Part shown: in pieces, positions 3,218-28,876 of the stretch
Layout: each line of letters begins with the position of its first letter
How positions within the stretch are numbered: position 1 is the stretch's first letter
Virus record (IMG/VR): IMGVR_UViG_3300013125_000017
Location: 1-40,216 of that record
Length of the DNA: 40,216 nt
DNA from: a virus
Reading direction: 5' to 3' (one strand)
Notes under the pieces: model-generated
The model's database searches: none
Seen by the model: only the letters and a program-made list of their open reading frames with translations
Told to the model about the DNA's origin: nothing
Program-made: the position numbers and the translations under genes

Positions 3218-4099
3218 TTATAAATTATTTGTAGCATTATTAATTCCCTCTAATAATAAACCTTTACAAATAGACTTATTCTTCTTCCATTCATTACTAT
3301 TAATAGTTATAAGTTTTATGTTATTCTTCAAACATAACTTGTTTTTTATAATATCACGTTTATAATGTTCATTTAATGTATGATAATATCCATTATACTC
3401 TATTGCCATGTTTATATCTGGCATCCATATATCTAATTCTAACCAATGATTTGTATTTGGATTTATTAATTGTGTTCTATCATTTTCAATTATTGTTCCT
3501 TTATATATTGTTTTTATAAAATCTAATACTTCCTTTTCTTCTCCACTGTATAAACATTTTGGACATCTATAACCTCTTTTAAAATTATGAAATGTGGTTC
3601 TATAATGATGTTTTGATTTACATTCTATTGTTATTATTGAATTTACATTTTTATATAACATCATATCAGATATAATCTTGTATCCAAATTGTTTTATATA
3701 ATTTTGTATATATCCTTTTGTATATTTTTGTTTACCAGAGCATATATTACATCGTGTTTTATTGTTTTTAAAATTATTTATTGATATATAACATTCATGC
3801 CCTTTATTACAAATCATTTTTAATTTTTTTGAATTATTTTCATATATTTCTGATACTAAAATATACTTTTCCTTTTCTACAATTTCTTTTACATTATCAT
3901 ATGATAATTTTGGTGTGCCAAAACATACAGGACATCTATTCCCATTATAAAAAGAATTAAAATGGGCATCATATAGATGCCCATTATTACATATTATATG
4001 TAATTTTGTTTTACTGTTTGTGTATTCAGTAGAAAGTAATTTATATCCTGTAGATGATACAAATGATTTTATATATTCATATGACAATTTCGGAGGCAT
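3218..4099 (-). CDS. Free-standing homing endonuclease, zinc-ribbon array plus Vsr/EDxHD-like nuclease
   Basis: 293 residues. Three modules of about 60 residues occur in a row, each with a GY(K/I)hhS strand, C-x2-GH or C-x-x-KH, and C-x2-C: HIICNNGH...CPVC, KMICNKGH...CNIC and TIECKSKH...CPKC. The C-terminal domain (about 200-280) has the Vsr/EDxHD fold pattern: GEEKEV, LELDIWMPD, IEYNGYYH (about 231-238), a KNKLC helix and a final LITINSNEW strand. The N-terminus (MPPKL) matches the portal endonuclease (MPKKL). It is inserted between the glycosyltransferase stop (4117) and the fibre gene and leaves both intact, so it is a free-standing selfish gene. No good ribosome site is seen at the start. 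Confidence 0.85.
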   Translation of the reverse strand: MPPKLSYEYIKSFVSSTGYKLLSTEYTNSKTKLHIICNNGHLYDAHFNSFYNGNRCPVCFGTPKLSYDNVKEIVEKEKYILVSEIYENNSKKLKMICNKGHECYISINNFKNNKTRCNICSGKQKYTKGYIQNYIKQFGYKIISDMMLYKNVNSIITIECKSKHHYRTTFHNFKRGYRCPKCLYSGEEKEVLDFIKTIYKGTIIENDRTQLINPNTNHWLELDIWMPDINMAIEYNGYYHTLNEHYKRDIIKNKLCLKNNIKLITINSNEWKKNKSICKGLLLEGINNATNNL

Positions 4100-4116
4100 A
4101 TAGTCATAAGTCCATA

Positions 4117-7100
4117 TTAAATAAATTTTTGTATACCCTCTATTACAGATGTGTATTCAATTGACGTTGAACACTCAAAATTTTTACTTCGTGGGCACCA
4201 GTTCCAATTTCCTCTATCTAAAACAGTATCTCTATCATTAAAACAACCGGAACATTTTCCTTTTGGTGTAATTATTCTAGCACAATTATCTTGAAACTCA
4301 CCCCATACAGCACTATAACCAGAGATTAATACAGTAGGAACATCTAATGCCCATGCCATCCAAGTAGGACCAGAACTTACACCAATAAATAAGTCTGCAT
4401 GCTGTATATTATTTATAGTTTCTTCCATTGGCCTATTAGTTTTATCTATAATTCCTTTAAGATTTGTTGGTTCTTTACTTATAACCATGACCTCATATCC
4501 TTTTGCCTTCAAATATTCAATAACCATAGGCCATCCTTTTTGGTTTAACCAATATTTACATTGAAATGTTGAATGTTCTGAAATTGCAACATATTTTTCT
4601 TTTATAGGTCTATCCTTAGTGGATTTTGTTATTTTAGGTCGTATTTCTTGATAATCTAATCCAAGATAATCAGAAGCGACTTTTTGTAAAGGAACAGACC
4701 TCCAATTATTTTTATTGGAATTATAATCATTATCTCTGCATCCTACTTCATAGTAAGCATATATATTTTCTACAGGGGCTTTATCAGGAAATACCCATAT
4801 GATATCAGGATATTCTTTTTCATATAATGAATTATGAAATGTTCTCCCATATACTTTACAATTATGTTTTTTTCTAAATTCATTTATATAAGGTATCCAT
4901 GCTATTGTATCACCAAGGGATGAACTATCTGTTTGTATCATAACATTTTTTCCTGTGCAATCAAATATATGTCGTGATACTTCTTTGCCATCATGTTTAA
5001 TAATGATATCCCAATTTATATAATATCTCGGAGAAGGAGATCCCCAATGATTTGGTGTTAATGTAGTTTTATATACAGATAATCCGGTATCTCTATTAAT
5101 GAAATCTACTTCATATTCTTTTGATGATTTACCAACAATCTCAACTTTAGCACCATTCATAAATGAATATATGAATTTATCATCATCTACATCCATAAAA
5201 CCATCATCATATTCACTGTTCCATGTAATACATTTGATTCTATCATCATAAAATCTAAATATGGTATCTTGATATGTCATATTAGGATCTATGACAAATT
5301 CTTTATAATAATTACCAGACGATACTTTTATCACACCTATTTTTTCCATAACACTATATTCGGTTTTACCACTTTCTAATGTACCTTCATATATATCTGA
5401 TACACCATCAACGATATGTTCAACTTTATATGTGCCCACAGAATGTACTCTATCATCTCTCATAACAAACATAATGAGCTTGTGATCATCTGTTTCAGAT
5501 ATACGAAAGTGCATTTCAGGTTCTTCATCCATTTGATCTCTTATATTCCCTCGTATAATTATCTTTTCTTTTTCTTCTGTTGATAAAATATAAGTATCCT
5601 TTAACATATTTCTATCTTTAAAATAATGATATATCCAGTGCTCTAAAATTAAATCAGATGTTGCATTTATTCTATCACACATTCTTGCAGATTCATCTCT
5701 ATATTCTGACCATTTCTTCATTTCAATAATATTATCATCAAACCATTTTATATCAAATGAGAAAAAATTAGTTATAATACCATCTTGTTTTGGAATTGTA
5801 TGGTGATAATCAAACCCTATGAATTTTTTACCTTTTGATCTATGGTAATTGGCCCTTTTTATATATGATTCTAAATTAGCTTCGACATCATATTCTATAA
5901 AATGGGCAAAATTATATTTATTTCTAAGAAATGTAGCAGCGTTTTTCATAGAAGTGAGACAACACAATCCATGATAAGGATTATTGAGTGATGTAACTAT
6001 TTTTAATTTTTTATAAGAATTCATCCAGAATGTTAGACTGTAATTCTCACTTAAAGGGTTATTTTTATCATATATTAAATAATCAACTTTCTCTATAATG
6101 TTTAAAGGTAATGGATAATGAGTTACCAGAGCGATAGGTAAATTAGTTTCTTTTGCTTTATCTATACTATTTAATAGAATATCCATCTTTTCTTCTGTGT
6201 TAGGATAACAATCCATGATAATTACTTCATCATCATATTTTATTTCTTTTTTGTATGCAATTGCCTCAATACAATCTTGAGAATGTGAAAAAACCTTTTT
6301 TATTGAGATATCAAAAAATCCCGTATCTAATAACATATCTCTCAATATATCTACTGTAAATCCAAACTTATGTTCTTCTCCTTGTCTTGTCTGAAGGCCA
6401 AATATGGTATCCATAGAAAATCCTGTTTTATCTTCTGATTTTTTCCATTCTTCAATAATAGATTCAAAATCAGGGACTTCTATATGTATTTTTCCTTCAT
6501 ATTTTAATATTCTAAACCATTCATTTAATGCTTGTTTTATATCATATTTGTTTAGATGTTCAAGAAGATGTGATGAATAGAGTTCAGATACAGAATGATC
6601 TTCATATGGAAGAGATAGTGCATCAGCCATTTGGTCAGCTTTATCATAATATTTATCGATATTGATATATCCTTTTTTTGGATATTCACCACTACCTATA
6701 TTTAATTTTACTGGATAATACTTGGTATAGTCAATTTTATTAATTATATCCATAGCAATATTTGCAGAATTTTGCCAAGTAAAATTTCTAATAAAATCAA
6801 TGTTATCCATTGTGTATTTTCTACATTCGTCATAATTTTCATATATATATCTCATCTGTTTTTTCATGTCATCAAAATCAGGTTCAGACCATACACCAGG
6901 CACATTATCTTGAATAAATACATTTTCAGGTTTTTTAAATTCTTTTACTTTCACTTTATAAGCATATTTACCAAATTCTAATGAAGCACCCCAATCAACT
7001 ATAAGTGTAGGTGTTCCACAAGCAAGAGCTTCACATGCCGGAAGACCCCATCCTTCTGATCTGGATACCATCAATAAAGCATGTCCTCTTTGCAAGTAAT

Positions 7101-7851
7101 CTATATATTTTTCATCGGATGGAAAATGAAGGATTTCAATTCTATCATCTTGTAATCCATATTTTTCAAGTCTTTCTTCAGTCGATTTGTATTCATCAAC
7201 AGGCCACGGATTATCAGCTGATATTATTAAACCTACTGGTTCGTCTTTTTCAAATTCCTCTATAAATGCTTGAACCATTTCTTTTGTATATTTTCTATAA
7301 TCCCACCTACCAAATATCATAAACTTGAATCTTCCATCATCAAATCTTTTTTTATTGAACCAATCAATAGGTTTAAATTTATCTATATCAACACCTTCTG
7401 GGACAACAAATACTTTATCACTGGATATCCCTTGTTTTATTGTGCAATCTCTTTGCCATTGAGTAGGAACCCATATTTGATCAAATTCTTTTAATTTCTC
7501 AAAAAATTGTACTGGTTGTTCGGTTGATTCCCATACGTTTAGCGCTATTTTAGGCCCTTGATAAGAATCGTAAAAATACATGTGATTAGTTTCCATCAAG
7601 ATTATATTCAACAATTTTTCATTGGATTTTGGGTTGAAAGGTGTTCCTATTTCCCAAGGCGGTTCTCCCCATGTTTGATGAACTACCATATCTTTTTGTG
7701 ATTGAGTTAAATATGATATATTCGATGTATGGGTAAAATTACGAATTCTTACAGGTATCCGTTCATTTAATGCAGTAAAAAATTCTCTGGCATGATTTGC
7801 ATAGCCTGTGTGTCCACAAAAAGGCGCATGCGCATATATTAAGCTAAACAT
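4117..7851 (-). CDS. Multidomain glycosyltransferase (GT4 + methyltransferase-like + GT-A-like + heptosyltransferase-like)
   Basis: 1244 residues from the ATG at 7851, which is preceded by GGGGAG; an upstream in-frame ATG at 7869 lacks a ribosome site. Domains in order: a GT-B family 4 glycosyltransferase (1 to about 370; FMIFGRWDYRKYTKEM and the acidic E-x7-E region SRSEGWGLPACEALACGTP near 265); a SAM methyltransferase-like domain (from about 382; LNIGSGEYPKKGYINID, then SSHLLEHL); a region at about 541-740 that may be a degenerate GT-A fold (IIMDCYPNTEEK...HFIEYDVE); a linker with beta-rich repeats; and a C-terminal family 9 / TibC-like heptosyltransferase domain (from about 965; TDSSSLGDTIAWIPYINEF, SSGPTWMAWALDVPTV). 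The last domain ends in CSGC...CP...C (from about 1200), the iron-binding cysteine pattern of autotransporter heptosyltransferases. A likely role is glycosylating virion fibres or host surface sugars; the substrate is not known. Confidence 0.75.
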   Translation of the reverse strand: MFSLIYAHAPFCGHTGYANHAREFFTALNERIPVRIRNFTHTSNISYLTQSQKDMVVHQTWGEPPWEIGTPFNPKSNEKLLNIILMETNHMYFYDSYQGPKIALNVWESTEQPVQFFEKLKEFDQIWVPTQWQRDCTIKQGISSDKVFVVPEGVDIDKFKPIDWFNKKRFDDGRFKFMIFGRWDYRKYTKEMVQAFIEEFEKDEPVGLIISADNPWPVDEYKSTEERLEKYGLQDDRIEILHFPSDEKYIDYLQRGHALLMVSRSEGWGLPACEALACGTPTLIVDWGASLEFGKYAYKVKVKEFKKPENVFIQDNVPGVWSEPDFDDMKKQMRYIYENYDECRKYTMDNIDFIRNFTWQNSANIAMDIINKIDYTKYYPVKLNIGSGEYPKKGYINIDKYYDKADQMADALSLPYEDHSVSELYSSHLLEHLNKYDIKQALNEWFRILKYEGKIHIEVPDFESIIEEWKKSEDKTGFSMDTIFGLQTRQGEEHKFGFTVDILRDMLLDTGFFDISIKKVFSHSQDCIEAIAYKKEIKYDDEVIIMDCYPNTEEKMDILLNSIDKAKETNLPIALVTHYPLPLNIIEKVDYLIYDKNNPLSENYSLTFWMNSYKKLKIVTSLNNPYHGLCCLTSMKNAATFLRNKYNFAHFIEYDVEANLESYIKRANYHRSKGKKFIGFDYHHTIPKQDGIITNFFSFDIKWFDDNIIEMKKWSEYRDESARMCDRINATSDLILEHWIYHYFKDRNMLKDTYILSTEEKEKIIIRGNIRDQMDEEPEMHFRISETDDHKLIMFVMRDDRVHSVGTYKVEHIVDGVSDIYEGTLESGKTEYSVMEKIGVIKVSSGNYYKEFVIDPNMTYQDTIFRFYDDRIKCITWNSEYDDGFMDVDDDKFIYSFMNGAKVEIVGKSSKEYEVDFINRDTGLSVYKTTLTPNHWGSPSPRYYINWDIIIKHDGKEVSRHIFDCTGKNVMIQTDSSSLGDTIAWIPYINEFRKKHNCKVYGRTFHNSLYEKEYPDIIWVFPDKAPVENIYAYYEVGCRDNDYNSNKNNWRSVPLQKVASDYLGLDYQEIRPKITKSTKDRPIKEKYVAISEHSTFQCKYWLNQKGWPMVIEYLKAKGYEVMVISKEPTNLKGIIDKTNRPMEETINNIQHADLFIGVSSGPTWMAWALDVPTVLISGYSAVWGEFQDNCARIITPKGKCSGCFNDRDTVLDRGNWNWCPRSKNFECSTSIEYTSVIEGIQKFI

Positions 7852-7862
7852 TTTCTCCCCTT

Positions 7863-7952
7863 TCAACATATTATATTTTTTAAAGATTCTGATATTTTTT
7901 TATTTCTTTCAGCACTTGATTCATGTCCTTTCAATGCTTTAGAAATTTTTTC
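7863..7952 (-). pseudogene. Relic of a NUMOD3-type (GIY-YIG homing endonuclease) DNA-binding segment
   Basis: In the gap upstream of the glycosyltransferase the minus strand reads EKISKALKGHESSAERNKKI followed by SESLKN, two NUMOD3 motifs, ending at a stop at 7863. NUMOD3 is the repeated DNA-binding motif of GIY-YIG homing endonucleases. A ribosome site (AAAGGAG, 7973-7979) and ATG (7960-7962) lie just upstream, but an A6 run puts them one base out of frame. Deleting one A would give a 32-residue reading frame. No GIY-YIG nuclease domain is present, so this is a remnant. Confidence 0.6.
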
Positions 7953-8021
7953 CTATTAACATAACAACTTATCTCCTTTAATCTTTTTAATTATTTACTA
8001 AAATATGGTTGATGTGTAAAT

Positions 8022-8354
8022 TTATTTCTTATCTTTAATTCGTTTCAAATAGTAATACCATCTATTAGGTGTTATTATAAAATATATTATATTAAATATC
8101 CACCCAATAGGATATCTTTTAAAAGCATAAAAATCAGCCTCTCTTTCATCTTCTAGCCAGAATTCATTATCAGGATCAATAGAATGGTATTGTTCATGTG
8201 CTATTATATAGTTTTGATGTTGTTTATTTAACCACAAGTTTTTCCATAAATCTTTTCGTACTTTTAGATTATATGTTCCATCTTCGTGATGAATACATAC
8301 ACCTATCTGACCCTTTTCAAGTTCTGATTCATCTATTAATTCAGGTTCAATCAT
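8022..8354 (-). CDS. Small HExxH zinc metallopeptidase-like protein
   Basis: 110 residues with a clear HEQYH motif at 53-57 (IIAHEQYHSID) and a downstream acidic element EDEREAD at 69-74, the layout of IrrE/ImmA-like and related gluzincin domains in which the third ligand is an Asp/Glu. Residues about 82-97 (IGWIFNIIYFII) are hydrophobic and could anchor the protein to the membrane. The start has a strong ribosome site (AAGGAGATAATATA-ATG). It lies 12 bp after the UvsY-like gene and is probably co-transcribed with it from the promoter at 8833-8861. The substrate is unknown. Confidence 0.6.
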   Translation of the reverse strand: MIEPELIDESELEKGQIGVCIHHEDGTYNLKVRKDLWKNLWLNKQHQNYIIAHEQYHSIDPDNEFWLEDEREADFYAFKRYPIGWIFNIIYFIITPNRWYYYLKRIKDKK

Positions 8355-8366
8355 TATATTATCTCC

Positions 8367-8813: not shown

Positions 8814-8832
8814 ACCTCCCGATTTTTATATT

Positions 8833-8861
8833 ATTTTATCAAATGATGAATAAAATGTAAA
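8833..8861 (-). promoter_or_regulatory. Sigma70-like promoter with extended -10, leftward
   Basis: On the minus strand TTTACA (8856-8861), 17-nt spacer, TAAAAT (8833-8838), with TGa directly before the -10 (extended -10). It drives uvsY and the metallopeptidase. It is back to back with the rightward promoter at 8867-8895, the two -35 boxes being 5 bp apart. Confidence 0.65.
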
Positions 8862-9488: not shown

Positions 9489-10298
9489 ATGAATTCAAAT
9501 TTACTTGAACAACTTATAATAAAAGCATGTCTACAAGATACAGGATTAATAGCAACCCTTTCATCTACGTTTAAAAAGGATTATTTTGATAATTTAACAG
9601 CCTCACAAATTTATAATTATATAATAACTAAATTTAAGCAATATCAAACAATTCCACCTAGAGTAGAAATCATTGCTGAAATTGATAAAGAAAATGATAA
9701 TGCTGAAGCATTTATTCGTGATGTTGACAGTATAGATTATGATATAACCAGAAATTATACAAGTTTGTTTGATAGTATTAATGATTATTTAAAAGAAAAG
9801 GCCGTAAAGAAGTCTATATTAACTTCTGTTGATGTAATAAACAATAAACCCGATGAAATATCAAGTATAAAAGGAATTATTGAAGAAGCATTATCAAAAG
9901 ATCTGAAAATAGACTTAGGTTTAGATTATTTCGGGGCATTAAAGGATCGTTTGATAAGAATAATGAGTACAGATGTTACAAGAGTACCATCATATTTTCC
10001 TAAATTTGATGAATATATATCTGGTGGGTTTCCGCCATATACACTATCCATAATGCTCGCCAGGATACATGGTTTTAAGTGTATTTATGGTGATGGTATT
10101 ATTACCATTATGGATTCAAAGAATTTTATTAAAAAAATAAAAATATCTGATTTATATAAACATTCTTGTATAGATGAATGTAAGCAACAAAATAATTTTG
10201 AACAAAAACCAAAACTACTTTTGTTTCAAAGGAAATATGGAGAAATAGAAGGAGAAAAAAGATATAATGAGTGGCAGAATATCAACAAGAAAGGGTAA
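9489..10298 (+). CDS. 41: Replicative DNA helicase gp41, N-terminal piece fused to a very short N-intein
   Basis: Residues 1-197 are the N-terminal helicase (DnaB/gp41-like) up to its Walker A loop: SGGFPPYTLSIMLARIHGFK. Directly after the P-loop lysine an intein starts at Cys198 (CIYGDGIITIMD, then IKISDLYK). This N-intein resembles the roughly 25-residue N-fragment of atypically split inteins such as AceL-TerL (C-x-Y-G-D...IKIxDLYK). The frame then runs on in a linker and one KYGEIEGEKRYNEW repeat, shared with the endonuclease at 11669-12895, before the stop. The Walker A serine is on the next piece (10510-11637), so the helicase cannot bind ATP until it is spliced. Start follows AAAAAGGAATAGAAGATA. 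Confidence 0.85.
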   Translation: MNSNLLEQLIIKACLQDTGLIATLSSTFKKDYFDNLTASQIYNYIITKFKQYQTIPPRVEIIAEIDKENDNAEAFIRDVDSIDYDITRNYTSLFDSINDYLKEKAVKKSILTSVDVINNKPDEISSIKGIIEEALSKDLKIDLGLDYFGALKDRLIRIMSTDVTRVPSYFPKFDEYISGGFPPYTLSIMLARIHGFKCIYGDGIITIMDSKNFIKKIKISDLYKHSCIDECKQQNNFEQKPKLLLFQRKYGEIEGEKRYNEWQNINKKG

Positions 10299-10509
10299 GG
10301 GATCTCTTCCTTGGTATATTAAGAAATATGGTAATATAGAAGGAACGAAAAAATACCAAGAAAAAACAAATAAATTGAAGGGCTGTCACTCCCTTCCTTG
10401 GTATATTGAGAAATATGAAGGTAATAAAAGATATCAAGAGTATTGTTCCTATAAAGAGATTATAATAATAATCCGGTTGAAACAATTCAGAAATGTTTGG
10501 AGTTCATAA
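10213..10509 (+). pseudogene. Decayed homing endonuclease repeats between the two halves of the first helicase intein
   Basis: Three copies of a repeat with consensus KYG-x-IEG-x-K-(R/K)-Y occur here in two frames: QRKYGEIEGEKRYNEW in the frame of the helicase N-piece, and WYIKKYGNIEGTKKYQE and WYIEKYEGNKRYQEY in the frame of 10267-10509. In a further frame, NPVETIQKCLEFING runs to a TAA that overlaps the ATG of the next gene (ATGGATAA). The same repeat stands near the N-terminus of the intact endonuclease at 11669-12895. No nuclease domain remains, and at least two frame changes separate the pieces, so this is a remnant of an endonuclease that once occupied this intein. Confidence 0.7.
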
Positions 10510-11637
10510 ATGGATAATATTTGTAAAGAGTATAGAAAATGTGAAGATATTTCGATATATACAAATATAGGATGGGTTCCTGTTGATTATGTATTAAAAA
10601 CAATCCCATTTGAAAAATATATTGTACTATTTGAATCTGGCAGAGAAATAGAATGTGCTGATAGACATGCTTTCATAAATGAAGAATATAAAACAATCAT
10701 AACCAAGGATTTAAAAATAGGGGATAGAATACTTTCTGATGATGGTGTTGATATTGTGTTTGATATATTCAATACTGGTGAATATGAAGAAATGTATGAT
10801 GTCAGTCTAAGAGACCATCATCTTTATTATGCAAACGGTTTATTGTCACACAATTCAGCATTTTTGGCTAATATGGCGGCAAGACAAGTTCTAAATGGAT
10901 GGAATGTTGTTCTTGCTTCATTAGAAATGTCAGAAGATGCCTTTGCACAAAGATTTGATGCTATCTTTTCAATGTATGATATAAACAAATTATATAAGGA
11001 TTCCCAAGTAAGGAAAAAACTTCCTTCGGCATTAGATAAGGTAAAGGGTACATCTGGTAGAGGAAATCTTTGGATAAAGCAGTATCCTACAGGTAAGGCA
11101 ACGGTTGAGGATTTTAGAAAATACATAAGAGAATTAACAATGAGAGGACTGAACCCTCAAATATTTATTTGTGATTATATGAATCTGATGAAGCCAGCAT
11201 ATAAAAGCAAAGGAGATATGTATAATGATGTTAAAACAATTTCAGAAGAATTAAGAGCAATGTCATTTGAATTTAAAATGCCTATAATATCTGTTAGTCA
11301 GTTGAATAGGGAGGGTATGAATATACCCTTTGAACAAGTTGATTTTACATATATATCAGAATGTTTATCTTTAGATACCTCTGTGTTGAAATGGGATGGT
11401 AAAATATACATTGCTGAAAAAATATCAAATCTAAAGAAAGATGATATAATTATGGGTAGCAAGGATAATGTTTGTGTAAAAAGACTCTTCAATAAAAAAA
11501 TTAAAAAAATGTATAAAATAAAAACGAAAAGTGGTAAGGAAATAATTTGTTCAGCAGATCATAAATTCCCAACATCAGAAGGTATAAAAAATATAAATAG
11601 TGGTCTTTGTGTTGGTGAAAAATTGAAAACTTTATAA
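10510..11637 (+). CDS. 41: Helicase gp41, middle piece, flanked by a C-intein and a second N-intein
   Basis: 375 residues in three parts. Residues 1-115 are a long C-intein: block B-like ESGREIECADRHAF, then blocks F/G HHLYYANGLLSHN ending in Asn115. Residues 116-284 are helicase extein starting with the Ser that completes Walker A (SAFLANMAARQ), then Walker B-type IFICDYMNLM and the sensor loop SVSQLNREG, ending YISE. Residues 285-375 are a second, canonical N-intein (CLSLDTSVLKWDG; block B SGKEIICSADHKFPT), very like the known gp41-1 split intein. This one polypeptide must take part in two trans-splicing reactions. It has no obvious ribosome site and starts by overlapping the stop of the decayed endonuclease frame. 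Confidence 0.88.
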   Translation: MDNICKEYRKCEDISIYTNIGWVPVDYVLKTIPFEKYIVLFESGREIECADRHAFINEEYKTIITKDLKIGDRILSDDGVDIVFDIFNTGEYEEMYDVSLRDHHLYYANGLLSHNSAFLANMAARQVLNGWNVVLASLEMSEDAFAQRFDAIFSMYDINKLYKDSQVRKKLPSALDKVKGTSGRGNLWIKQYPTGKATVEDFRKYIRELTMRGLNPQIFICDYMNLMKPAYKSKGDMYNDVKTISEELRAMSFEFKMPIISVSQLNREGMNIPFEQVDFTYISECLSLDTSVLKWDGKIYIAEKISNLKKDDIIMGSKDNVCVKRLFNKKIKKMYKIKTKSGKEIICSADHKFPTSEGIKNINSGLCVGEKLKTL

Positions 11638-11640
11638 ATA
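11633..11640 (+). promoter_or_regulatory. T4-type late promoter motif before the intein endonuclease
   Basis: TATAAATA overlaps the stop of the middle helicase piece, 29 bp upstream of the endonuclease ATG at 11669; a second copy is at 11592-11599. T4 homing endonucleases such as I-TevI are known to be delayed by late promoters, which fits. The motif is common by chance at this base composition. Confidence 0.3.
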
Positions 11641-11668
11641 GATATAAATCAGTTGTGGGGGTAAGACG

Positions 11669-12895
11669 ATGGTAAAGTTTTCAATGCTAAATAAAGAAGA
11701 TAAGTTGAATAGATTATATAATAGCCCTGTATGGATAAAAAAAATTGGTAATTTTTATATTGATAAAGAAAGGGAAACTATTATAATATCTATTATTTCC
11801 AAATGGGAGAAACTATATATTACAGATATAGTAAGTTTAGCGAGGCTTATAAGATATGCTGAAGTTGATGAAATAAAAAATAACTATAATGTGTTATCAA
11901 CAACAGATGGTATTGAAAAAAGAAAACGAAAATTAAATATGTTCATTCTTCAATATGGGAAAAAAGAAGGTAGCGCACGATATGGCCAATTTACCAATAA
12001 ACTTAATATATTGAATAGATATATTAAAAAATATGGTGAAATAGAAGGATATAAAAAATATGGTCTTTATATAAAAAAACTTTCTGTTTCACAGCAAAAA
12101 AAGGTTATTCGTGAAGGAAAAATAATTCAAAAAGAGAGATCCCTTTTATGCAAGGAGTATTGGATGAAAAGGGGATATTCTAAAGACGAATCAATTTTAT
12201 TAGCAAAAAACCATTCTAATATGTTAGTAAAAAATTCTCATAGTGTTGTTCATGTTGTACCAAGAATACATAGACTCAATACATTAGATTATTGGTTATA
12301 TAATGGATATGATTATGAAACAGCATGTGTAATGAAAAAAATACAAACTGATAAATCTATACAATCAAAAGAGGAATATAAAAAGAAATATGGTGAAAAA
12401 TGGGAAGAAAAATGGGATGTAATGCAAGAAAAGAGAAGGATAAAAACACTCAAAACTATATCAAAAAATAATGGGTTTAAATGTAATGCATCTAAACAAT
12501 CTTTATTGTATTTTTTACCTTTAAAGTGTTGGATAATGAAAAAATATAATATATCAGAAGATGATATATATATAGGGATTGATGGTTCAAAAGAATTTTT
12601 TCTTGCCAATTCAACACAATATTATTTTAGATATGATTTTACAATAAGGACAAAAAAGATTATAATAGATTATCATGGAGAGAGATTTCATCCGTCAAAA
12701 CATATAATACCTGATAAAGAATGGTATAAGTGGAAATCACCATATGGAATATCTTCTACTATACAGTATAATATAGATATTAAAAGAAAAATAGTAGCAG
12801 AAGAATTAGGGTTTAAATATTATGTAATATGGTCATATAAAGAATATGATGATGAAATAAAAAATGTAATGAAATTTATTGAGGATAATATATGA
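11669..12895 (+). CDS. Homing endonuclease of the fractured-gene (Vsr-like) family, in the second helicase intein
   Basis: 408 residues between the N-half and C-half of the second helicase intein. The N-terminal part has KYG-x-x-EG-type repeats (QYGKKEGSARYGQF, KKYGEIEGYKKYGLY) thought to act in DNA recognition. The middle has YWMKRGYSKDESILLA and DYWLYNGYDYETA repeats. The C-terminal domain is Vsr-like: YDFTIRTKKIIIDYHGERFHP (about 320-342), then a long helix with DIKRKIVAEELG and a final YYVIWSYKEY strand. This matches the free-standing endonucleases described between split intein halves in phage fractured genes. It starts after GGGGG and its stop overlaps the next ATG (ATGA), which couples it to the C-intein gene. 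Confidence 0.85.
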   Translation: MVKFSMLNKEDKLNRLYNSPVWIKKIGNFYIDKERETIIISIISKWEKLYITDIVSLARLIRYAEVDEIKNNYNVLSTTDGIEKRKRKLNMFILQYGKKEGSARYGQFTNKLNILNRYIKKYGEIEGYKKYGLYIKKLSVSQQKKVIREGKIIQKERSLLCKEYWMKRGYSKDESILLAKNHSNMLVKNSHSVVHVVPRIHRLNTLDYWLYNGYDYETACVMKKIQTDKSIQSKEEYKKKYGEKWEEKWDVMQEKRRIKTLKTISKNNGFKCNASKQSLLYFLPLKCWIMKKYNISEDDIYIGIDGSKEFFLANSTQYYFRYDFTIRTKKIIIDYHGERFHPSKHIIPDKEWYKWKSPYGISSTIQYNIDIKRKIVAEELGFKYYVIWSYKEYDDEIKNVMKFIEDNI

Positions 12896-13302
12896 TAGAG
12901 TATAATGATGAAATAGAATCTATTGAATATGTTGGTGAATTAGAATGTATGGATATTGAGGTATCAGGAGATCATTTATTCTATGCTAATGATATACTTA
13001 CAAAAAATAGTATTGGAACAATGGCGAGTGCTGATTTTGCTCTTATCTTTGGTAGTGATGAATCTCAGGCAGTATATGAATCTGAACTATTTTATAAAAT
13101 TGTAAAGAATAGATTAGGTGGTAGGGTAGGTGAAATTGATAAATTTTATACAGATATGAGAAATTTAAAGATGTATGATAGTATGGAATTAGATAAATGG
13201 CTTGATGATTCTGGAATATCAGGTGATACCAGAAAAAAGGCAGAAGTTATAGATAGAGTTGAAAATAATAGAGGTAGAAGATCAAGAAGGGAAAGAAGAT
13301 AA
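12892..13302 (+). CDS. 41: Helicase gp41, C-terminal piece preceded by a canonical C-intein
   Basis: Residues 1-39 are a C-intein (ECMDIEVSGDHLFYANDIL, ending TKN39), the same length class and nearly the same sequence as the gp41-1 C-intein. The usual penultimate His is replaced by Lys (TKN instead of THN). From Ser40 the helicase resumes: SIGTMASADFALIFGSDE through VKNRLGGRVGEIDKF, then a tail rich in Arg. Joining YISE to SIGTMASADF gives the continuous gp41 motif. The three exteins sum to 197+169+97 = 463 residues, close to T4 gp41 (475). Confidence 0.88.
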   Translation: MIEYNDEIESIEYVGELECMDIEVSGDHLFYANDILTKNSIGTMASADFALIFGSDESQAVYESELFYKIVKNRLGGRVGEIDKFYTDMRNLKMYDSMELDKWLDDSGISGDTRKKAEVIDRVENNRGRRSRRERR

Positions 13303-15009: not shown

Positions 15010-17790
15010 ATGTTTCGTAATGTCTATTATGATACAAGAAAAAGTAAAATTTGTTTGTGGGATCAAGTGCGAGGTAAAAATGTATATACCAGCATTAATT
15101 GGGTTCCATATGTATATGAATTAGCTGACGATGGTGATATAAAAACTATCGAAGGAGAAACAGCAAAAAAGATAACATTTAATACATACAATGAGTATTA
15201 TGTATATGCTAAGGAACATCCAAATTGCAAAGAAAATTTATTACGGCCAGAAATTCAGTTTCTGGCCGAATATTATCATAAAATCCCTGATGATGAAGTA
15301 GAAAATCCAAATTTAAAGGTATATTCTTTGGATATAGAAGTGTGTGCAGATAAAGCATTTCCAAAAGCTACCGAAGCCAAAGATCCTGTATCACTTATAT
15401 CTGTATATGATATGATGAATAAAACAACCATATCATTCGGTATTAAACCATATGACGGTAAGTATTTGAATGAACCTTGGTTTACATTTGTTCATTGTAA
15501 AGATGAAGAAATGTTACTAAGACAGTTCTTTGGATGGATGCATAAAAATCCATGTGATGTTATAACGGGTTGGAATTGTATTCCATTGACGAATTATATA
15601 TTCAAGTCAAATGAAATTGCACAATTATCAAGTATTATTCCGGGTGATATGCTATCCTTATCAAATGAGGTTGATATAGTATATCCGAGGTCTAAAAAGT
15701 TGGTTAGAAGGATAAAACTTGGGAATGGCAGTTCAATTGAAACATCAGGAGATCATATCATACCAATAAGATATATTAATAAGAATTCCTATACAAAACT
15801 TATAAAAAACGATAAATCTAATAATCACATATATGATGTGGATATGAAAGTTGATGATATACCATTTGAAGAACAATCCTGTTTTGTTCATGTTCCGTTT
15901 GATTTGAATGTAAATAAGTGTAATGATATTGATAATAACTTATTATATTTAGCAGGATTAATATACACCGATGGATCATTGAGAAATAAATCGTGTATAT
16001 ATGATGAATATAGAATATATGAATCAAATACAGAATTATTGAATAAAATACCATATATTACAACAAAAATATGTGGAAATAGAGATCATGGATTTTATCG
16101 AAATGTAAAACACTCTATTGTAAAACCAGTTCATAATCTCATATATGATGAACAGGGTAATAAGGCCTTAAATATATCAATGCTTAGTCGGTTATCTAAA
16201 AAACAATTTTATTATTTTCTTTCTGGCCTTCTCGATGGTGATGGGATTGCTAGTTCTACAGGAATGTCATATTGTGATTACACTAAAGACGGAATTGATA
16301 AACTATATAACTTATGCTTATGGAATGGTATATTTATAACAAGAAGTAAAAATATTATGCATTTTATAGAGTATGACTTCAATTCATTACATTTAAATCA
16401 TCCATATAGATGGAAGTCAATGAAAAAAAGTAGTTTAAATAGGAATTCATCTCAAAAAGCTTCTAAAATCAGATTCAAAAAAATTGATAATGAATATTAT
16501 ATAAGAATAACTGATATTGAAGAAACGGATAAAGAAGTAGAAATGGGTGATATAAAAACAAAGACAGGATATTTTATATCAAATGGTGTAAATGTTCACA
16601 ATTGTATGACATTTGACTTACAGTATTTGATAAACAGGATAGAACGAATTACAGGTGATGAAGGATCATATGCTCTTTTATCTCCTATAAAAAATGTAAG
16701 AACATGGAAACCAAAAGATGGTGATGATGTAAATATAGATATAGCTGGTGTTACTATACTTGATTATCTTGATATATATAAATGGTATAGTCCTAAAAAA
16801 CTTGAACGATATACTCTTGATTATGTATCTATCTTTGAACTCAAGAAAGGAAAGGTAGATTATTCTGTATATAATGATTTACGTCAACTATATCATGATG
16901 ATTGGAATTTATATGTAGAATACAATGTAATTGATTCATTACGAGTAGGACAATTAGAAGAAAAACTTGGATATATAAAATTAGTTCAAACATTATCGCT
17001 ACTTACAAAAGTACCCATGAAGTATTATCATATACAAACAGCTCTGATTGAAGGTATGTTTATTACATATTTTAGAAGAAATGGTATGTGTGCACCCACT
17101 TTTTATGGTGGCACACAAGAAAGTTATGAAGCTGCTTATGTCAAATCTCCAATTCTTGGTATGCATAATTGGGTAATAGATTTAGATATTACATCTTCGT
17201 ATCCAACAGCTATCATTACATTAAATATGTCAAATGAAACATATTATGGTAGAATACTTGGTATGACAGAGGATCAAGTAATGAGTTATTCAAGAAATAA
17301 AAATTTTCCAGAATTTCAAATGATGAAAAATATAGGAAAAATGGAATTTTCAAATAAAAGACTTGATTTATTTAATAATGCTTTAAAAAAGAAATTATTG
17401 TGTATAGCTCCATGTGGATCTGTTTTTATTACTAATCCATTGGGTGTTATTGCTACCGTGGAAAAAAATACTTTTCATAAAAGAATTGAAGTAAAGAAAA
17501 AAATGATAAAACTAAAAAAATCTTTACCTGATTTAAGAGGTAAAATGCTTGAGGATACAAAAGAAAAAATTGCCAGATATAATAGTTTACAGAATGCTTT
17601 AAAAATTATTCTAAATGCTACATATGGCGTTCTTGCTACACCATACTTTAGATATTTCAATATAAACATAGCTGAAGCCATCGTTTCTTGTGGAAGGCAG
17701 ACAATAAAAGCAGGTGAATCAATAGTAAATAATTTATTAAACAATCCTAATGATGAATTAAAGGAAATATTGAAAAATATCAAAGAATAG
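15010..17790 (+). CDS. 43: Family B DNA polymerase gp43, N-terminal and palm part, with an in-frame LAGLIDADG intein
   Basis: 926 residues as translated. Exonuclease motif I is YSLDIEV (Asp108, Glu110). Exonuclease II is split by an intein: VITGWN189 / C532 MTFDLQYL. Polymerase motif A is DLDITSSYPTA (about 724) and motif B is KIILNATYGVLATPYFRYFN (about 865). The gene then stops at TAG 17788-17790, after the helix ending LKEILKNIKE, before motif C (DTDS), which is found in the next gene. Exteins of 189+395 residues plus about 280 after the break approach the length of T4 gp43 (898). The promoter is at 14946-14974. The polymerase must be spliced, and the break before motif C must be bridged or complemented in trans. 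Confidence 0.88.
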   Translation: MFRNVYYDTRKSKICLWDQVRGKNVYTSINWVPYVYELADDGDIKTIEGETAKKITFNTYNEYYVYAKEHPNCKENLLRPEIQFLAEYYHKIPDDEVENPNLKVYSLDIEVCADKAFPKATEAKDPVSLISVYDMMNKTTISFGIKPYDGKYLNEPWFTFVHCKDEEMLLRQFFGWMHKNPCDVITGWNCIPLTNYIFKSNEIAQLSSIIPGDMLSLSNEVDIVYPRSKKLVRRIKLGNGSSIETSGDHIIPIRYINKNSYTKLIKNDKSNNHIYDVDMKVDDIPFEEQSCFVHVPFDLNVNKCNDIDNNLLYLAGLIYTDGSLRNKSCIYDEYRIYESNTELLNKIPYITTKICGNRDHGFYRNVKHSIVKPVHNLIYDEQGNKALNISMLSRLSKKQFYYFLSGLLDGDGIASSTGMSYCDYTKDGIDKLYNLCLWNGIFITRSKNIMHFIEYDFNSLHLNHPYRWKSMKKSSLNRNSSQKASKIRFKKIDNEYYIRITDIEETDKEVEMGDIKTKTGYFISNGVNVHNCMTFDLQYLINRIERITGDEGSYALLSPIKNVRTWKPKDGDDVNIDIAGVTILDYLDIYKWYSPKKLERYTLDYVSIFELKKGKVDYSVYNDLRQLYHDDWNLYVEYNVIDSLRVGQLEEKLGYIKLVQTLSLLTKVPMKYYHIQTALIEGMFITYFRRNGMCAPTFYGGTQESYEAAYVKSPILGMHNWVIDLDITSSYPTAIITLNMSNETYYGRILGMTEDQVMSYSRNKNFPEFQMMKNIGKMEFSNKRLDLFNNALKKKLLCIAPCGSVFITNPLGVIATVEKNTFHKRIEVKKKMIKLKKSLPDLRGKMLEDTKEKIARYNSLQNALKIILNATYGVLATPYFRYFNINIAEAIVSCGRQTIKAGESIVNNLLNNPNDELKEILKNIKE
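15577..16602 (+). other. Full-length intein with LAGLIDADG homing endonuclease in the exonuclease II motif
   Basis: Residues 190-531 of the polymerase, 342 residues. Block A is CIPLTNYIFKSNE; block B is NGSSIETSGDHIIP (T-x-x-H); the LAGLIDADG motifs are LAGLIYTDG (314-322) and LSGLLDGDG (404-412), both with the catalytic acid; block F/G is GYFISNGVNVHN, followed by Cys532. All splicing residues (Cys1, block B His, His-Asn, +1 Cys) are present, so both splicing and nuclease are probably active. It lies between N189 and C532 of VITGWN-CMTFD, so the exonuclease cannot function unless it is spliced. Confidence 0.9.
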
Positions 17791-20357: not shown

Positions 20358-20534
20358 ATGGAGAAGAAGCCTATGGTCGTAAGAGTTACTAAAACAGAGT
20401 TTGAATTAGATGATGGAAGAATATTTCCTCACCCAGTAGAACTTGATGACGTTCCTACTATTGAGGAATTTCAGAAAATTTATGACAAAAGCCGTAAACT
20501 TGTTTCTGATATGCTGAAGGATGATAATGACTAA
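20358..20534 (+). CDS. Small phage protein, probably truncated by the IS607-type insertion
   Basis: 58 residues: VVRVTKTEFELDDGRIFPHP, then VPTIEEFQKIYDKSRKLVSD, a compact beta-then-helix protein. Its last codons (20520-20534) overlap the transposon tnpA start, so the C-terminus may come from the element. If the element is removed between GG at 20519-20520 and GG at 22697-22698, the frame continues LKERYKRNMW and stops. No family is recognised with confidence. Ribosome site GAAAGGTTAAAT. Confidence 0.6.
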   Translation: MEKKPMVVRVTKTEFELDDGRIFPHPVELDDVPTIEEFQKIYDKSRKLVSDMLKDDND

Positions 20535-21162
20535 TAATCTTATAGATATATCTGAAGCATCTCAACTTCTTGGAGTGGATAAGTCTACTTTGAGGTATTG
20601 GGATAAAACTAATAAACTGAAACCACAGAAAACCGCTGGTGGTCATAGAAGATATTTATTATCTGATATTAAGAAACTTCAAGGTATATCTGAAGACTGT
20701 ATAGATGATGGTATTAATGAAAATAATGTAGCTGTTTATTGTAGAGTTTCCTCACATGAGCAGAAACAAAAAGGTGACTTAGAACGTCAAAAAGGCAGAC
20801 TTCTTGAATATTGTATTAAGAAAAAGTATCAAGTAGAGTATATCTTCGAAGAGGTAGGTTCTGGTATGTCTGATACAAGAACTAAACTACATAGGTTGTG
20901 TGATGTAGCTGAAAAGAGAAAGATATGTAAAATTATAGTAGAACATAAAGATAGATTAACAAGATTTAACTATTTGATATATGAAAGATATTTTAAAAGT
21001 TTAGGCGTTGAAGTTATTATTGTAGAAGAGACTCTACCTAAAACTTATGAAGCTGAGTTAGTTGAAGATATTATGTCTTTAGTAGCCTCGTCTTCATCTA
21101 AAGTTTATGGAAAAAGAAGTGCGGAAAATAGAAGAAAGAAAAAAGAGATGGTTACATGTTAG
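20527..21162 (+). CDS. tnpA: IS607 transposase TnpA (serine recombinase)
   Basis: 211 residues. The N-terminal MerR-like helix-turn-helix (DISEASQLLGVDKSTLRYWD; TAGGHRRY) is followed by a serine recombinase catalytic domain: VAVYCRVSSHEQ (nucleophilic Ser near 75), KIIVEHKDRLTRF and the C-terminal SSSSKVYGKRSAENRR. Length matches IS607 TnpA. The ATG at 20527 is favoured over 20521 because AAGGA lies 5 nt upstream. The gene overlaps the next gene by 7 bp. Confidence 0.92.
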   Translation: MTNNLIDISEASQLLGVDKSTLRYWDKTNKLKPQKTAGGHRRYLLSDIKKLQGISEDCIDDGINENNVAVYCRVSSHEQKQKGDLERQKGRLLEYCIKKKYQVEYIFEEVGSGMSDTRTKLHRLCDVAEKRKICKIIVEHKDRLTRFNYLIYERYFKSLGVEVIIVEETLPKTYEAELVEDIMSLVASSSSKVYGKRSAENRRKKKEMVTC

Positions 21163-21576: not shown

Positions 21577-22689
21577 ATGAAACTAATAAGATCAACTAAA
21601 TGTAGTCTGAAGTTTGCTACAAAACATAAAACCGCTGAATTACAATCTATCCTTGCAGAGTATGGTAAAGTTTGTAATATCTTTATAGATCACTTTTGGA
21701 AGAACGAAACTCCTTCTAAAGCTGAACTCCTTAAAGATATAGTTGATCTTCCTAAAGAGACTTGGCTATCTGCAAGGTTGAGAAAAGTTGCTGCCCGTGA
21801 ATCTATTGACATGATCAAGGCAACTAAAGAGAGATGGAAGTCTAAACCAGATAAGATGAAGATGCCTATACATAAAGGCAAACGAATGTATGTGTCTTGC
21901 ACCATAGCTGATCTCAATGAGTCAGAAGAGGCTACTGAATTTGATGCTTGGTTACATATAGCTTCGGTAGGAGATAAGCATATTTTAGATTTGCCCATTA
22001 AATTCCATAAGCATTTCAATAAGATAGCTTCTATTGGTAAAAGATTAAATAGTTATATTATTACTGATAAGTATGTTCAATTTAGTTTTGAAGTCGAAAC
22101 CTTACCTAAAAAAGAAGGTAACAAGGTTTTAGGTATAGATACTGGTATTAACGCTCTTGCGTCTCTTTCTAACAAGATACAGCTTGGTACAGATATTAAA
22201 TCTTGTATAGAGAGGATAAAGAGGTGTAAGCAAGGATCAAAAGGTCAGAAACAGGCTCGTAGAGCTTTAAAACAGAGAATAGATGAAGTTGCTCAAGAGA
22301 TTATTAAACTCGATCCTGATATGATTGTAGTAGAAAAGTTGAAGGATTTAGGTAAGAATACAAAAGTCAAACGTCTATTGACTAAAAATATTAGACGCTC
22401 TATCGGAATCTGGAATTGGAAGTATTGGTTAAAAAGGTTAGAACAAGCTTGTGAACTTAACCGTGTTAAGTTCCGCACTGTAGCTTCTTTTTATACCTCT
22501 ACAACCTGTTCAGAGTGTGGTTATTCTGATAGGATGAATCGTAATGGTGAGCTATTTAAGTGTCTAAAATGTAACCACGAGATGAATGCGGATATAAATG
22601 CCGCCTTGAATATACTCAAACGATTCATTACAGGAGTCTACGGTTCCTGTTGCAAACCTGAAGAAGTAATGAACTTTAATTTTTCATAA
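21577..22689 (+). CDS. tnpB: TnpB, RNA-guided nuclease of the IS200/IS605/IS607 group
   Basis: 370 residues, the usual compact TnpB length. RuvC-like catalytic residues are present: Asp188 in LGIDTGINAL, Glu near 253 in IVVEKLKDLG, and Asp near 339 in MNADINAALNI. The zinc finger CSECG...CLKC lies at about 311-330. The N-terminal KLIRSTKCSLKFATKH is the usual OB-fold start. TnpB is guided by an omega-RNA encoded at the 3' end of its gene and cuts DNA to preserve the element. All catalytic and zinc residues are intact, so activity is likely. Confidence 0.92.
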   Translation: MKLIRSTKCSLKFATKHKTAELQSILAEYGKVCNIFIDHFWKNETPSKAELLKDIVDLPKETWLSARLRKVAARESIDMIKATKERWKSKPDKMKMPIHKGKRMYVSCTIADLNESEEATEFDAWLHIASVGDKHILDLPIKFHKHFNKIASIGKRLNSYIITDKYVQFSFEVETLPKKEGNKVLGIDTGINALASLSNKIQLGTDIKSCIERIKRCKQGSKGQKQARRALKQRIDEVAQEIIKLDPDMIVVEKLKDLGKNTKVKRLLTKNIRRSIGIWNWKYWLKRLEQACELNRVKFRTVASFYTSTTCSECGYSDRMNRNGELFKCLKCNHEMNADINAALNILKRFITGVYGSCCKPEEVMNFNFS

Positions 22690-24137: not shown

Positions 24138-24144
24138 TTAAATA

Positions 24145-24176
24145 CTATCCATAATAAAAATTTTTATTATGGATAG
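24145..24176. terminator. Bidirectional terminator, perfect 32-bp palindrome
   Basis: CTATCCATAATAAAAA followed by its exact reverse complement. The AT-rich centre provides a U-rich tail on either strand. It sits between the convergent genes ending at 24137 (+) and 24186 (-), so it should stop both transcripts. Confidence 0.85.
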
Positions 24177-24185
24177 AGTTATTTT

Positions 24186-26294: not shown

Positions 26295-27709
26295 TATTCT
26301 AGCCATCCTTTAATTCCTTTATTTTCACTTTCATTAGTTGAACTTGTTATACTACTACCAGAAATACTAAGAGCATACCTCTTTGCTGGATTAATAATCA
26401 AATTAGCTTGTGTTATAAATGATCTATTTAATAATACAGGTGTACTCATTGCGACTCTATTACTGATTGTAAATTTTATATCTTTATATGTGTCACCATT
26501 AAAAGTTACATTCAACAAAACAGCTGGTCTTTCTTCCATTTTTCCCATTGTACGAACATTTTTCATTCCATCTAGTTTATGCTCATATTTTTTACCATTA
26601 CAAGTCCATGTAATATATTCTCCATCTATTGTCCATTTATCAGAATGTATAACACAATATGATCCATTACCTGTATCCATTTTGGCTTTCATATCACCTA
26701 AAGTTTCTATATTGATCATTTCTATATAACCACATTCAGTAGGAGTCTTATGCCAATTATTTCTATTAGTTATATGAGTTATAACTTTTTTAGTTATAGG
26801 TATTTTTGTTGCTTTTTCTATTCCTTCTGTTCCGGGAGATGAATTAATTTCGAGAACATACAATTTACCATCTTTCGTTTTCATTATATCAACACCTGCC
26901 CATACAGCACCCACACATTTTGATGCTAGTATAGCTAATTTTTCTACATCTTCAGTTATTTTTAAGGGAGCGACCGAACCTCCTAATGAATAATTAGAAC
27001 GAAAATCTTGCTTAATCTTCATTCTTTTCATACCAGCTATATATTTACCACCTAAGATATGAATTCTCATATCATAATCCGCTTCTAAAAATTCTTGAAT
27101 AATAACCTCTGTTCCTTGTTTTAATTTCCATACCGTTTGTAGAGTAGATTTCATTCCTTCTACAGAATCAACTAAAAATACACCAACTCCTTGCTCTCCT
27201 GTAAGTGTCTTTATTACACAAGGAAATTTACCCCCTACCTTTTTAAAAGCGGCTTCTATACCATTTTCATTAGATATAAGGGCTGTTTTAGGTGTAGGTA
27301 TTTTAGCATCTGACATTTTTAAATAAGTTCTATACTTATCATAACATTCTTCTATACATTGTCTTGAATTTACACAAAATATACCATATCTTTCTAACTG
27401 TGACACAAAATCTAAACTTGCCTGTCCTTTGGTAACACTATTTCTTATTATAGCCACTGTATTATTTTTACTTATTCTGAATCCTACTTTATCACCAACA
27501 TTATAAATTCGTAATTTACCATCATCATCCTTAGCAAGAAACACCTCTTCAGCATATGCAATATAATTTTTTATTTTCATCGTATCACACATTTCTTTTA
27601 TTTTACCTGATGTTTTATAATAACCACCGGACTTTTTACGACTTGTTATTACAATAACTCGTATATCCTTATCTATTTCTTCTTTTAAATAGTCATCTAA
27701 TGATATCAT
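26294..27709 (-). CDS. RimK-like ATP-grasp ligase fused to a retropepsin-like protease domain
   Basis: 471 residues. The N-terminus MISLDDYLKEEID resembles the prohead leader seen in neighbours. Residues about 130-310 are a RimK-type ATP-grasp domain: GGKFPCVIKTLTGEQGVGVF, EVIIQEFLEADYDMRIHILG and GVDIMKTKDGKLYVLEINSS (metal-binding E-x-N). Residues about 325-440 form a retropepsin-like domain of the RimB/'ATP-dependent zinc protease' family: MKAKMDTGNGSYCVIHS, with the catalytic DTG at about 345-347. RimK adds glutamates to ribosomal protein S6, and RimB-type proteases are found beside it; here both are one polypeptide. The substrate is unknown; a host protein or a virion tail are possibilities. 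Ribosome site GAGGAATAAAAT. Confidence 0.8.
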   Translation of the reverse strand: MISLDDYLKEEIDKDIRVIVITSRKKSGGYYKTSGKIKEMCDTMKIKNYIAYAEEVFLAKDDDGKLRIYNVGDKVGFRISKNNTVAIIRNSVTKGQASLDFVSQLERYGIFCVNSRQCIEECYDKYRTYLKMSDAKIPTPKTALISNENGIEAAFKKVGGKFPCVIKTLTGEQGVGVFLVDSVEGMKSTLQTVWKLKQGTEVIIQEFLEADYDMRIHILGGKYIAGMKRMKIKQDFRSNYSLGGSVAPLKITEDVEKLAILASKCVGAVWAGVDIMKTKDGKLYVLEINSSPGTEGIEKATKIPITKKVITHITNRNNWHKTPTECGYIEMINIETLGDMKAKMDTGNGSYCVIHSDKWTIDGEYITWTCNGKKYEHKLDGMKNVRTMGKMEERPAVLLNVTFNGDTYKDIKFTISNRVAMSTPVLLNRSFITQANLIINPAKRYALSISGSSITSSTNESENKGIKGWLE

Positions 27710-27749
27710 ATTTTATTCCTCTTTATAATATTTACAATATTGATAAATC

Positions 27750-28876
27750 TTGACATTAATTCATCTCCAATTCCTTATCAGATAAAAATATTTCTATTCT
27801 ATTCTTTGTATTGTAACTACTTTTATTCCAGTCTTTATCAGATATTGTTAATAATTGGATATTATCTAATTCACATTGTTTTTTCTTTATTACATCATTT
27901 ATTTTCTTTTCAGATCTACTATGCCAATACTCTCCATTGATTTCTATTGCTTTTTTAAGATGAGGAAAATATAAATCAAGTTCAAGAAAATGATTTGTAT
28001 TTGGGTTAATAATAGTTCTCCTATCATTCATTATGTATGTTATGTTTAATGTATTTATAAATTTTCTTATTTCAATTTCTTCTTTTGATACACTACATTT
28101 TCCACATCTCTGACCGTCTCTCCAATGTCTAACTGAAATAGAATGTCTATGTTTGGCAGGACAAATAAATTCTATTTTTGTTGTATTTTGAGTTTTATAT
28201 TCATCTTCCTTTGTTATTACATTATATCCTTCATCTTCAAAAGACTTCTTTATATCAGAAAACTCTATTTGAGCTTGATTTTGACAATATGGACATCTAA
28301 TCCCTCTCTTGAATGCTGTATATGTAATATAGTGACTATGGCCGTTAGGACATTTGTAGTTCAATTTTGTTCTATAACCAGAAATTTTATATTCAGGTAT
28401 AAATACTGTGTATCCATTAGAATTAAATAATTTTAATATTTGCTCATTTGAAATAGGGGAATTTTTTCTACATTTTCCACATCTTTGCCCAGAAATCCAA
28501 TTACCCACACTTATTCTATGATAATGTCCATTAGGGCATGTAAAATATAAAAATTGATACCTATTAATATATTCTTTCGTATGTAAAACATATCCTTCAT
28601 CTTCAAATGATTTACTCAATAAATCGAAATCTAATTTGTTTTTCTGATTTATTATAGGATTTGAACATTTATTTGAACAATATAATAATTTTCCATCAAG
28701 ACGAATAAATTCTTTATTGCATCCCTTACAAATAAAGTAATTATAATGTCGTTTTGGTTTCAAATAATATTCTTCTCTTTCTTTATAAATGTTAAATCTT
28801 TTAATATTTTCTTCTGTAAGTTCTATGGTTTTTGGGTACATTGACATTAATCCATCTCCAATTCCTTATTAGATAA
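27750..28876 (-). repeat. 36-bp direct repeat flanking the endonuclease gene (27750-27785 and 28841-28876)
   Basis: The two 36-bp copies differ at two positions. On the minus strand the right copy is the 3' end of the DHH gene with its stop and the overlapping start (SNKELEMD, TAATG). The left copy is the 3' end of the endonuclease itself (SDKELEMN, TAATG). The endonuclease therefore sits between the original and a duplicated copy of the host gene's end. Confidence 0.9.
27756..28847 (-). CDS. Homing endonuclease with zinc-ribbon array and Vsr/EDxHD-like nuclease
   Basis: 363 residues. An N-terminal zinc finger (CKGC...CSNKC) precedes three modules with C-P-N-G-H or C-P-A-K-H and C-G-K-C/C-P-Y-C, each containing GY-x-h...EY. 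The nuclease domain has KEEIEIRKFI, LELDLYFPH, IEINGEYWH (about 295-303), a KKKQC helix and LLTISDKDW. It is a paralogue of the proteins at 3218-4099 and 1-306. The start is the second base onward of TAATG at the DHH stop, with GGAG just upstream inside the DHH coding sequence, so translation is coupled. The last nine residues copy the C-terminus of the DHH protein. Confidence 0.88.
   Translation of the reverse strand: MSMYPKTIELTEENIKRFNIYKEREEYYLKPKRHYNYFICKGCNKEFIRLDGKLLYCSNKCSNPIINQKNKLDFDLLSKSFEDEGYVLHTKEYINRYQFLYFTCPNGHYHRISVGNWISGQRCGKCRKNSPISNEQILKLFNSNGYTVFIPEYKISGYRTKLNYKCPNGHSHYITYTAFKRGIRCPYCQNQAQIEFSDIKKSFEDEGYNVITKEDEYKTQNTTKIEFICPAKHRHSISVRHWRDGQRCGKCSVSKEEIEIRKFINTLNITYIMNDRRTIINPNTNHFLELDLYFPHLKKAIEINGEYWHSRSEKKINDVIKKKQCELDNIQLLTISDKDWNKSSYNTKNRIEIFLSDKELEMN

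Follow-up and report, generated by a model that had tools for sequence, protein, structure and literature searches.

Zinc-module arrays joined to a Vsr-like nuclease in putative homing endonucleases of a T4-like phage

What does an array of small cysteine- and histidine-containing modules do in front of a phage nuclease? We address this question with three open reading frames (ORFs) of the virus record IMGVR_UViG_3300013125_000017, whose 40,216 bases constitute the window analyzed here and carry T4-like genes, e.g., the gp20 portal gene. The ORFs, all on the minus strand, are called HEG1 (P0001), HEG2 (P0002), and HEG3 (P0003), for homing endonuclease gene; the first two are complete, while the third stops at the contig end (Table 1). 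An original prediction had described three members combining modules and a nuclease. Its coordinates and motifs agree with the ORF list, the translations, and the profile matches, and its architecture holds for HEG1 and HEG2, but HEG3 has no nuclease inside the window. In HEG1 and HEG2, tandem Cys/His modules of ~61 residues each are followed by a C-terminal Vsr-like nuclease. With E values of 1e-15 or lower in HEG1 and HEG2 and best values of 0.14 (modules) and 0.67 (nuclease) in shuffled or reversed ORFs, the architecture is far beyond chance. Pfam assigns the modules to CapR/DUF4379 and PHROGs to endonuclease families: P0001 scores above cutoff for DUF4379 (39.2 vs. 24.5) and CapR (36.5 vs. 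24.2), P0002 is above it for CapR (29.9) and below it for DUF4379 (19.1), and P0003, with two modules by profile of which the second is truncated by the contig end, falls just below the CapR cutoff (23.9). A second contig, IMGVR_UViG_3300013131_000203 (loci L010 and L080), is 99.7% identical and extends past the window.

It is very probable that these genes encode Hef/EDxHD (Vsr-like) homing endonucleases of a T4-like phage, with the CapR/DUF4379 array as the DNA-binding part. The zinc modules at the N-terminus would together bind a long stretch of DNA in or close to the insertion site. Cutting of HEG-free alleles during a mixed infection would fall to the C-terminal nuclease, and subsequent repair would copy the HEG in. 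Homology to phage Hef proteins spans both modules and nuclease (tblastn). In the AlphaFold2 (AF2) model, the predicted nuclease fold resembles those of I-Bth0305I (3r3p; VIA Z 12.9, with 95 residues of HEG1 aligned at 2.2 A), NGO0050 (Z 12.2), and Vsr (1cw0; Z 11.3), and the nuclease family profile finds I-Bth0305I also by sequence (E 2e-8). The likeness to Vsr and to the EDxHD enzyme I-Bth0305I consists of the nuclease fold and a C-terminal sequence motif, the comparison with I-Bth0305I covering the catalytic domain alone, which is the sole content of PDB entry 3r3p. Fold, profile match, and genomic context agree with the earlier proposal of a homing endonuclease with a Vsr/EDxHD-like nuclease. 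Residues E188, E221, D223, E234, H240, and K252 of HEG1 are invariant or at least 90% conserved among the 47 sequences compared. The HEG1 nuclease model also matches mitoribosomal and FASTK-type RAP domains weakly.

HEG1 and HEG2 are free-standing between genes, and HEG3 is located in the portal gene, inside a split intein. The homologs of the two HEG1 neighbors are adjacent in locus L104, with no HEG between them; no direct repeat flanking HEG1 scored above shuffles. HEG2 is flanked by 36-bp direct repeats that are identical at 34/36 positions (score 30 vs. a shuffle maximum of 15), and its start codon overlaps the 3' end of the upstream host gene. In 10 relatives of this host gene no HEG follows immediately, although one of them (L105) has little sequence left there. 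The HEG2 junction was not found in an exact version lacking the HEG: the right-hand neighbor was present only in L109, where another ORF intervenes. The HEG-free neighbors of HEG1, the relatives of the HEG2 host gene, the 36-bp repeat, and an uninterrupted intein site (L084, see below) together point to mobility. As a separate observation, L109:962–1708, just upstream of a homolog of the HEG2 host gene, encodes one zinc module joined to a C-terminal end that looks HNH-like.

In a diverged phage (L031), an ortholog of HEG2 occupies the same site (L031:8243–9370), with flanks 58–62% identical. This sharing of one site by two diverged phages would fit a domesticated role, in which some copies regulate or help exclude competing phages and are not purely selfish, as would the reported origin of the CapR repressor from a module of this type (PMC10448857). 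We regard such a role as highly improbable: other relatives have no HEG behind the host gene, and HEG3 and a further copy, HEG4, are degraded, as expected of selfish elements.

The degraded copies are best seen around the portal gene. In the window, the portal ORF contains the N-half of an intein, the match of which to Intein_splicing (E 2e-8) is just under the cutoff of that model. In L080, the portal N-part and intein N-half span 6001–7317, HEG3 begins at 7310 with an overlapping start codon, and the intein C-half starts from 8227, the end of the intein reading FIKN followed by the extein sequence SVLENYFVPQ. A second small intein splits the portal gene again, ahead of SSEGRG. The first intein site is uninterrupted in L084 (EPEIM continuing directly into SLLENFF), where only the second intein is found. 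The intein N- and C-halves of L080 lie on separate ORFs around HEG3. A HEG flanked by the two parts of a split intein is reportedly also the arrangement in the fractured genes of Dassa et al. 2009 (cited in PMC12350094); the host gene here is the portal gene gp20. Given the location of HEG3, the portal protein would need trans-splicing, and its restoration would come about through trans-splicing of the split intein.

HEG3 has a third module in L080, and then a frameshift preceding the nuclease part. HEG4 (L080:9684–10163), behind the portal gene, consists of one module and a nuclease, with remnants upstream in another frame. These frameshifts in the second contig, together with the motif YYH in the P0001 nuclease where most relatives have YWH, are what one would see if all copies here were inactive, decaying relics. 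That explanation is unlikely, however, as HEG1 and HEG2 are intact and retain every putative zinc ligand of the modules and the conserved nuclease residues. Two other settings for the HEGs were considered and dropped: a surrounding intron, as Rfam at the gathering threshold gave no match in the window, and a tRNA-linked insertion, as a tRNA search of the window found none.

If the genes are homing endonucleases with a DNA-binding array, how does the array vary across the family? Matches were found by tblastn in 389 phage records, many of them annotated Hef or homing endonuclease. The 190 loci studied contain 142 distinct ORFs with modules and a Vsr-like nuclease; these have 1–8 modules, mostly 3 or 4, which in 141 of the 142 are all N-terminal to the nuclease. 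The spacing of the modules is most often 60–61 residues (first sequence set). A modular array had been proposed from the window, and the 1–8 modules in fixed register bear this out, though it was already published (PMC12350094, PMC10448857). More than 20 further arrays finish in other domains: Pfam detects CapR modules with GIY-YIG in L051:3624–4871 and module matches with HNH in L074:4917–5918, and others appear HNH-like by eye. As the array is joined to GIY-YIG or HNH, too, it is a portable part.

The number of modules changes while the locus stays the same. A five-module Hef lies between the genes for an ssDNA-binding protein and a DNA end protector in Campylobacter phages CP81, F336, and NCTC12673; at the same locus, the otherwise similar protein of vB_Cj_QDYZ has nine modules, with identity of 0.84–0.85 over the aligned parts and, at the DNA level, of 88–91% in the flanks and the outer parts. 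Similarly, L055 and L070 represent one locus with four detected modules (plus a degenerate fifth) in one case and eight in the other. Module position was the same, counted from the C end, as in the nearest relative in 66/231 cases, with 24% expected; this weak signal was not used.

The module itself was predicted with confidence (pLDDT 92 for whole HEG1 and 91.9 for the module array), although with a pTM of 0.51–0.59 the placement of the modules relative to one another is not determined by the model. Each module is predicted to fold into a helix, a short strand, a beta hairpin, and a short helix, with C-x3-H and C-x2-C as the putative ligands, and the four putative zinc-ligand columns are the most conserved ones across 544 modules. 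Foldseek gave no match for the module fold at E <= 0.001, the best VIA matches (Z 5.2, mitoribosomal proteins) are too weak for a fold name, and the module sequence profile had no convincing match in the PDB. The mitoribosomal proteins that weakly resemble one or two HEG1 modules in structure are from kinetoplastids (Z 5.2 for 6yxx_E2, Z 4.7 for 9hny_Fd).

Modules of one protein had been thought to differ as much as modules of different proteins. This is roughly true of P0001 and P0002, with identities of 0.24–0.57 within the proteins, but does not extend to the family, where identity is 0.476 within and 0.336 between proteins (544 modules from 177 proteins). The excess suggests that arrays are homogenized or recently expanded. 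HEG3 offers a local case: a presumed recent duplicate proved to be a real near-identical copy present in both contigs, but a 72-bp patch and not a whole module. The two copies are 97.2% identical, and as the patch occurs in L080/L010 too, it is no contig-end artifact. Covering part of a module and having a sharp edge, it looks like the product of gene conversion or unequal recombination. In general, arrays may change when modules recombine unequally or undergo gene conversion with each other.

Which part of a module might then read DNA? Each module is probably independent and would touch DNA mainly via its short second helix, which lies between the putative ligand pairs C-x3-H and C-x2-C. We compared recent in-array duplicates (191 pairs from 81 proteins) with pairs of modules from different proteins that are about as similar overall. 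At many variable columns the in-array duplicates show fewer differences, but not at columns 42, 43, 45, 46, and 48, which make up the short helix and the turn preceding the last ligand pair; column 42 differs in 0.81 of the in-array duplicates and 0.66 of the between-protein pairs. The helix columns were picked after a first look, and the replication was made on 44 proteins from loci unused then: the rate of differences between in-array duplicates at the helix columns was 1.48 (1.33–1.64) times that at the remaining variable columns. Residues RKHNQST account for 73% and acidic residues for 7% of the helix columns, in comparison with 51% and 19% at the other variable columns. The pattern makes the second helix of each module the likely DNA-reading surface.

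Were the helix columns to read target bases, one would expect their conservation among same-site orthologs. The results point in the expected direction but fall short of significance, and with some others they weigh against the reading given here. The helix ratio is 1.03–1.14 in same-site orthologs and 1.35 in paralogs (P 0.07–0.18, not significant), and in four Campylobacter phage genomes the helix and other columns give 0.086 vs. 0.077 for orthologs and 0.73 vs. 0.53 for paralogs. Loop columns 21–25 show excess divergence as well, and the helix is thus not the sole candidate surface. With matches of the module to PDB structures as weak as they are, it may be RNA or shape that is recognized, and the apparent frameshifts of HEG3 and HEG4 stand on the same side. 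A first ortholog test with a P value of 0.003 is not claimed, since the selection of pairs had used the tested columns; once these were masked in pair selection, the effect had P 0.07–0.18 for same-site pairs and was gone for pairs not tied to a site.

The same evidence bears on an alternative that is quite possible, if somewhat short of probable: the modules read DNA shape or bind with hardly any preference for particular bases, the nuclease together with one or two modules supplies specificity, and the array mainly contributes affinity and spacing, which would make it a DNA-binding region of a homing endonuclease and no re-programmable reader. The likeness of modules within one array, the tolerance of alleles at a single locus for three or four additional modules, and the lack of significant conservation of the helix columns in same-site orthologs all fit this, and phage-type homing endonucleases are described as less specific, with heterogeneous contacts (PMC3943268). 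Were the contacts identical, however, one would not expect homogenization to spare the polar helix, where recent duplicates diverge most, also in the replication. More speculative, and in our view doubtful, is the opposite extreme of a nuclease-independent, evolvable reader, in which each module helix would read a few bases and retargeting would proceed by module gain, loss, and conversion, as in the five- and nine-module alleles. A re-programmable reader was part of the original prediction; the helix divergence and the module-number alleles favor it, while target-linked conservation of the helix was not significant. If true, the array would join C2H2 fingers and TALEs as a natural modular reader of DNA, one already fused to several kinds of nuclease. 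The five helix columns and the allele pair CP81/vB_Cj_QDYZ make the idea directly testable.

The architecture as such is already known. A study of introns in the Bacillus phages AR9 and PBS1 (PMC12350094; NAR 2025, gkaf761) describes three to five CapR/DUF4379/DUF723-like domains of ~60 aa with a C-terminal EDxHD/Vsr-like nuclease of ~100 aa, reports thousands of UniProt matches, and calls the family a large unrecognized outgroup. The domain order is that of HEG1 and HEG2, and an AR9 protein is among the relatives found here; those HEGs lie in group I/II introns, whereas the ones here are free-standing or in a split intein and belong to a family set with 1–8 modules. Earlier, repeated CapR/DUF723 modules were described in T5orf172 HEGs, with module recombination and a proposed diversification of targets, and CapR was reported as a DNA-binding Zn-finger domain (PMC10448857, 2023); the repeated Zn-finger modules are related to those studied here, but the nuclease, T5orf172, is another one. 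Older than both papers is Hef, known from T4-like phage U5 and Campylobacter phage NCTC12673. These tblastn homologs have the same order of modules and nuclease and are free-standing beside core genes, but their identity to the HEGs here is low (about 26–34%) and several have an additional C-terminal region. As far as the literature was searched, the helix divergence pattern and the array-length variants are additions.

Table 1. Positions of the HEGs, their parts, and adjoining features in the window
Feature	Position	Strand	Evidence
HEG1, 293 aa: 3 CapR/DUF4379-like modules and EDxHD/Vsr-like nuclease; free-standing, intergenic	3218..4099	-	profiles, AF2 model
HEG1 module 1, residues about 7-60; putative ligands C37, H41, C56, C59	3920..4081	-	profile E 1e-21
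HEG1 module 2	3737..3901	-	module profile E 2e-16
HEG1 module 3	3554..3718	-	module profile E 3e-16
HEG1 nuclease domain, residues about 185-291	3227..3547	-	profile E 1e-28; VIA match to 3r3p
HEG2, 363 aa: 3 modules and nuclease, preceded by an N-terminal Cys motif	27756..28847	-	sequence, profiles
HEG2 extra N-terminal CxxC...CxxxC, residues about 39-61, unlike modules	28665..28733	-	sequence
HEG2 module 1	28470..28616	-	profile E 1e-15
HEG2 module 2	28284..28445	-	profile E 1e-15
HEG2 module 3	28092..28259	-	profile E 4e-16
HEG2 nuclease domain	27804..28088	-	profile E 1e-28; phmmer to 3r3p E 0.014
36-bp direct repeat, left copy (host gene 3' end)	28841..28876	-	repeat search
36-bp direct repeat, right copy (HEG2 3' end)	27750..27785	-	repeat search
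Host gene upstream of HEG2, DHH-like by reading of sequence	28847..30277	-	sequence
HEG3 5' part: module 1 and most of module 2	1..306	-	profile; continues in L080
gp20 portal N-extein and split-intein N-half (intein about 302-625)	299..1615	-	Portal_T4 E 5e-55
72-bp near-identical patch, first copy, in HEG3 module 1	184..255	-	
72-bp near-identical patch, second copy, in HEG3 module 2	1..72	-	

Several other elements are present in the window. At 9489–13302, a DnaB/gp41-type helicase gene is broken by two inteins, the second of which is split around an ORF of 408 aa (11669–12895); the C-terminal end of this ORF weakly matches the HEG nuclease profile, and it has no zinc modules. A short ORF between parts of the first helicase intein (10267–10509) looks like the frameshifted remnant of an inserted endonuclease. 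The family B DNA polymerase gene (15010–17790) contains an intein with a weak LAGLIDADG-like match. A serine-recombinase-like ORF (20521–21162) followed by a TnpB-like ORF (21577–22689) resembles, by sequence only, an IS607-type element. Finally, structural-type proteins at 37392–39533 and 39549–40214 contain long (GTSGSSG)n repeats, and the contig ends inside such a repeat.

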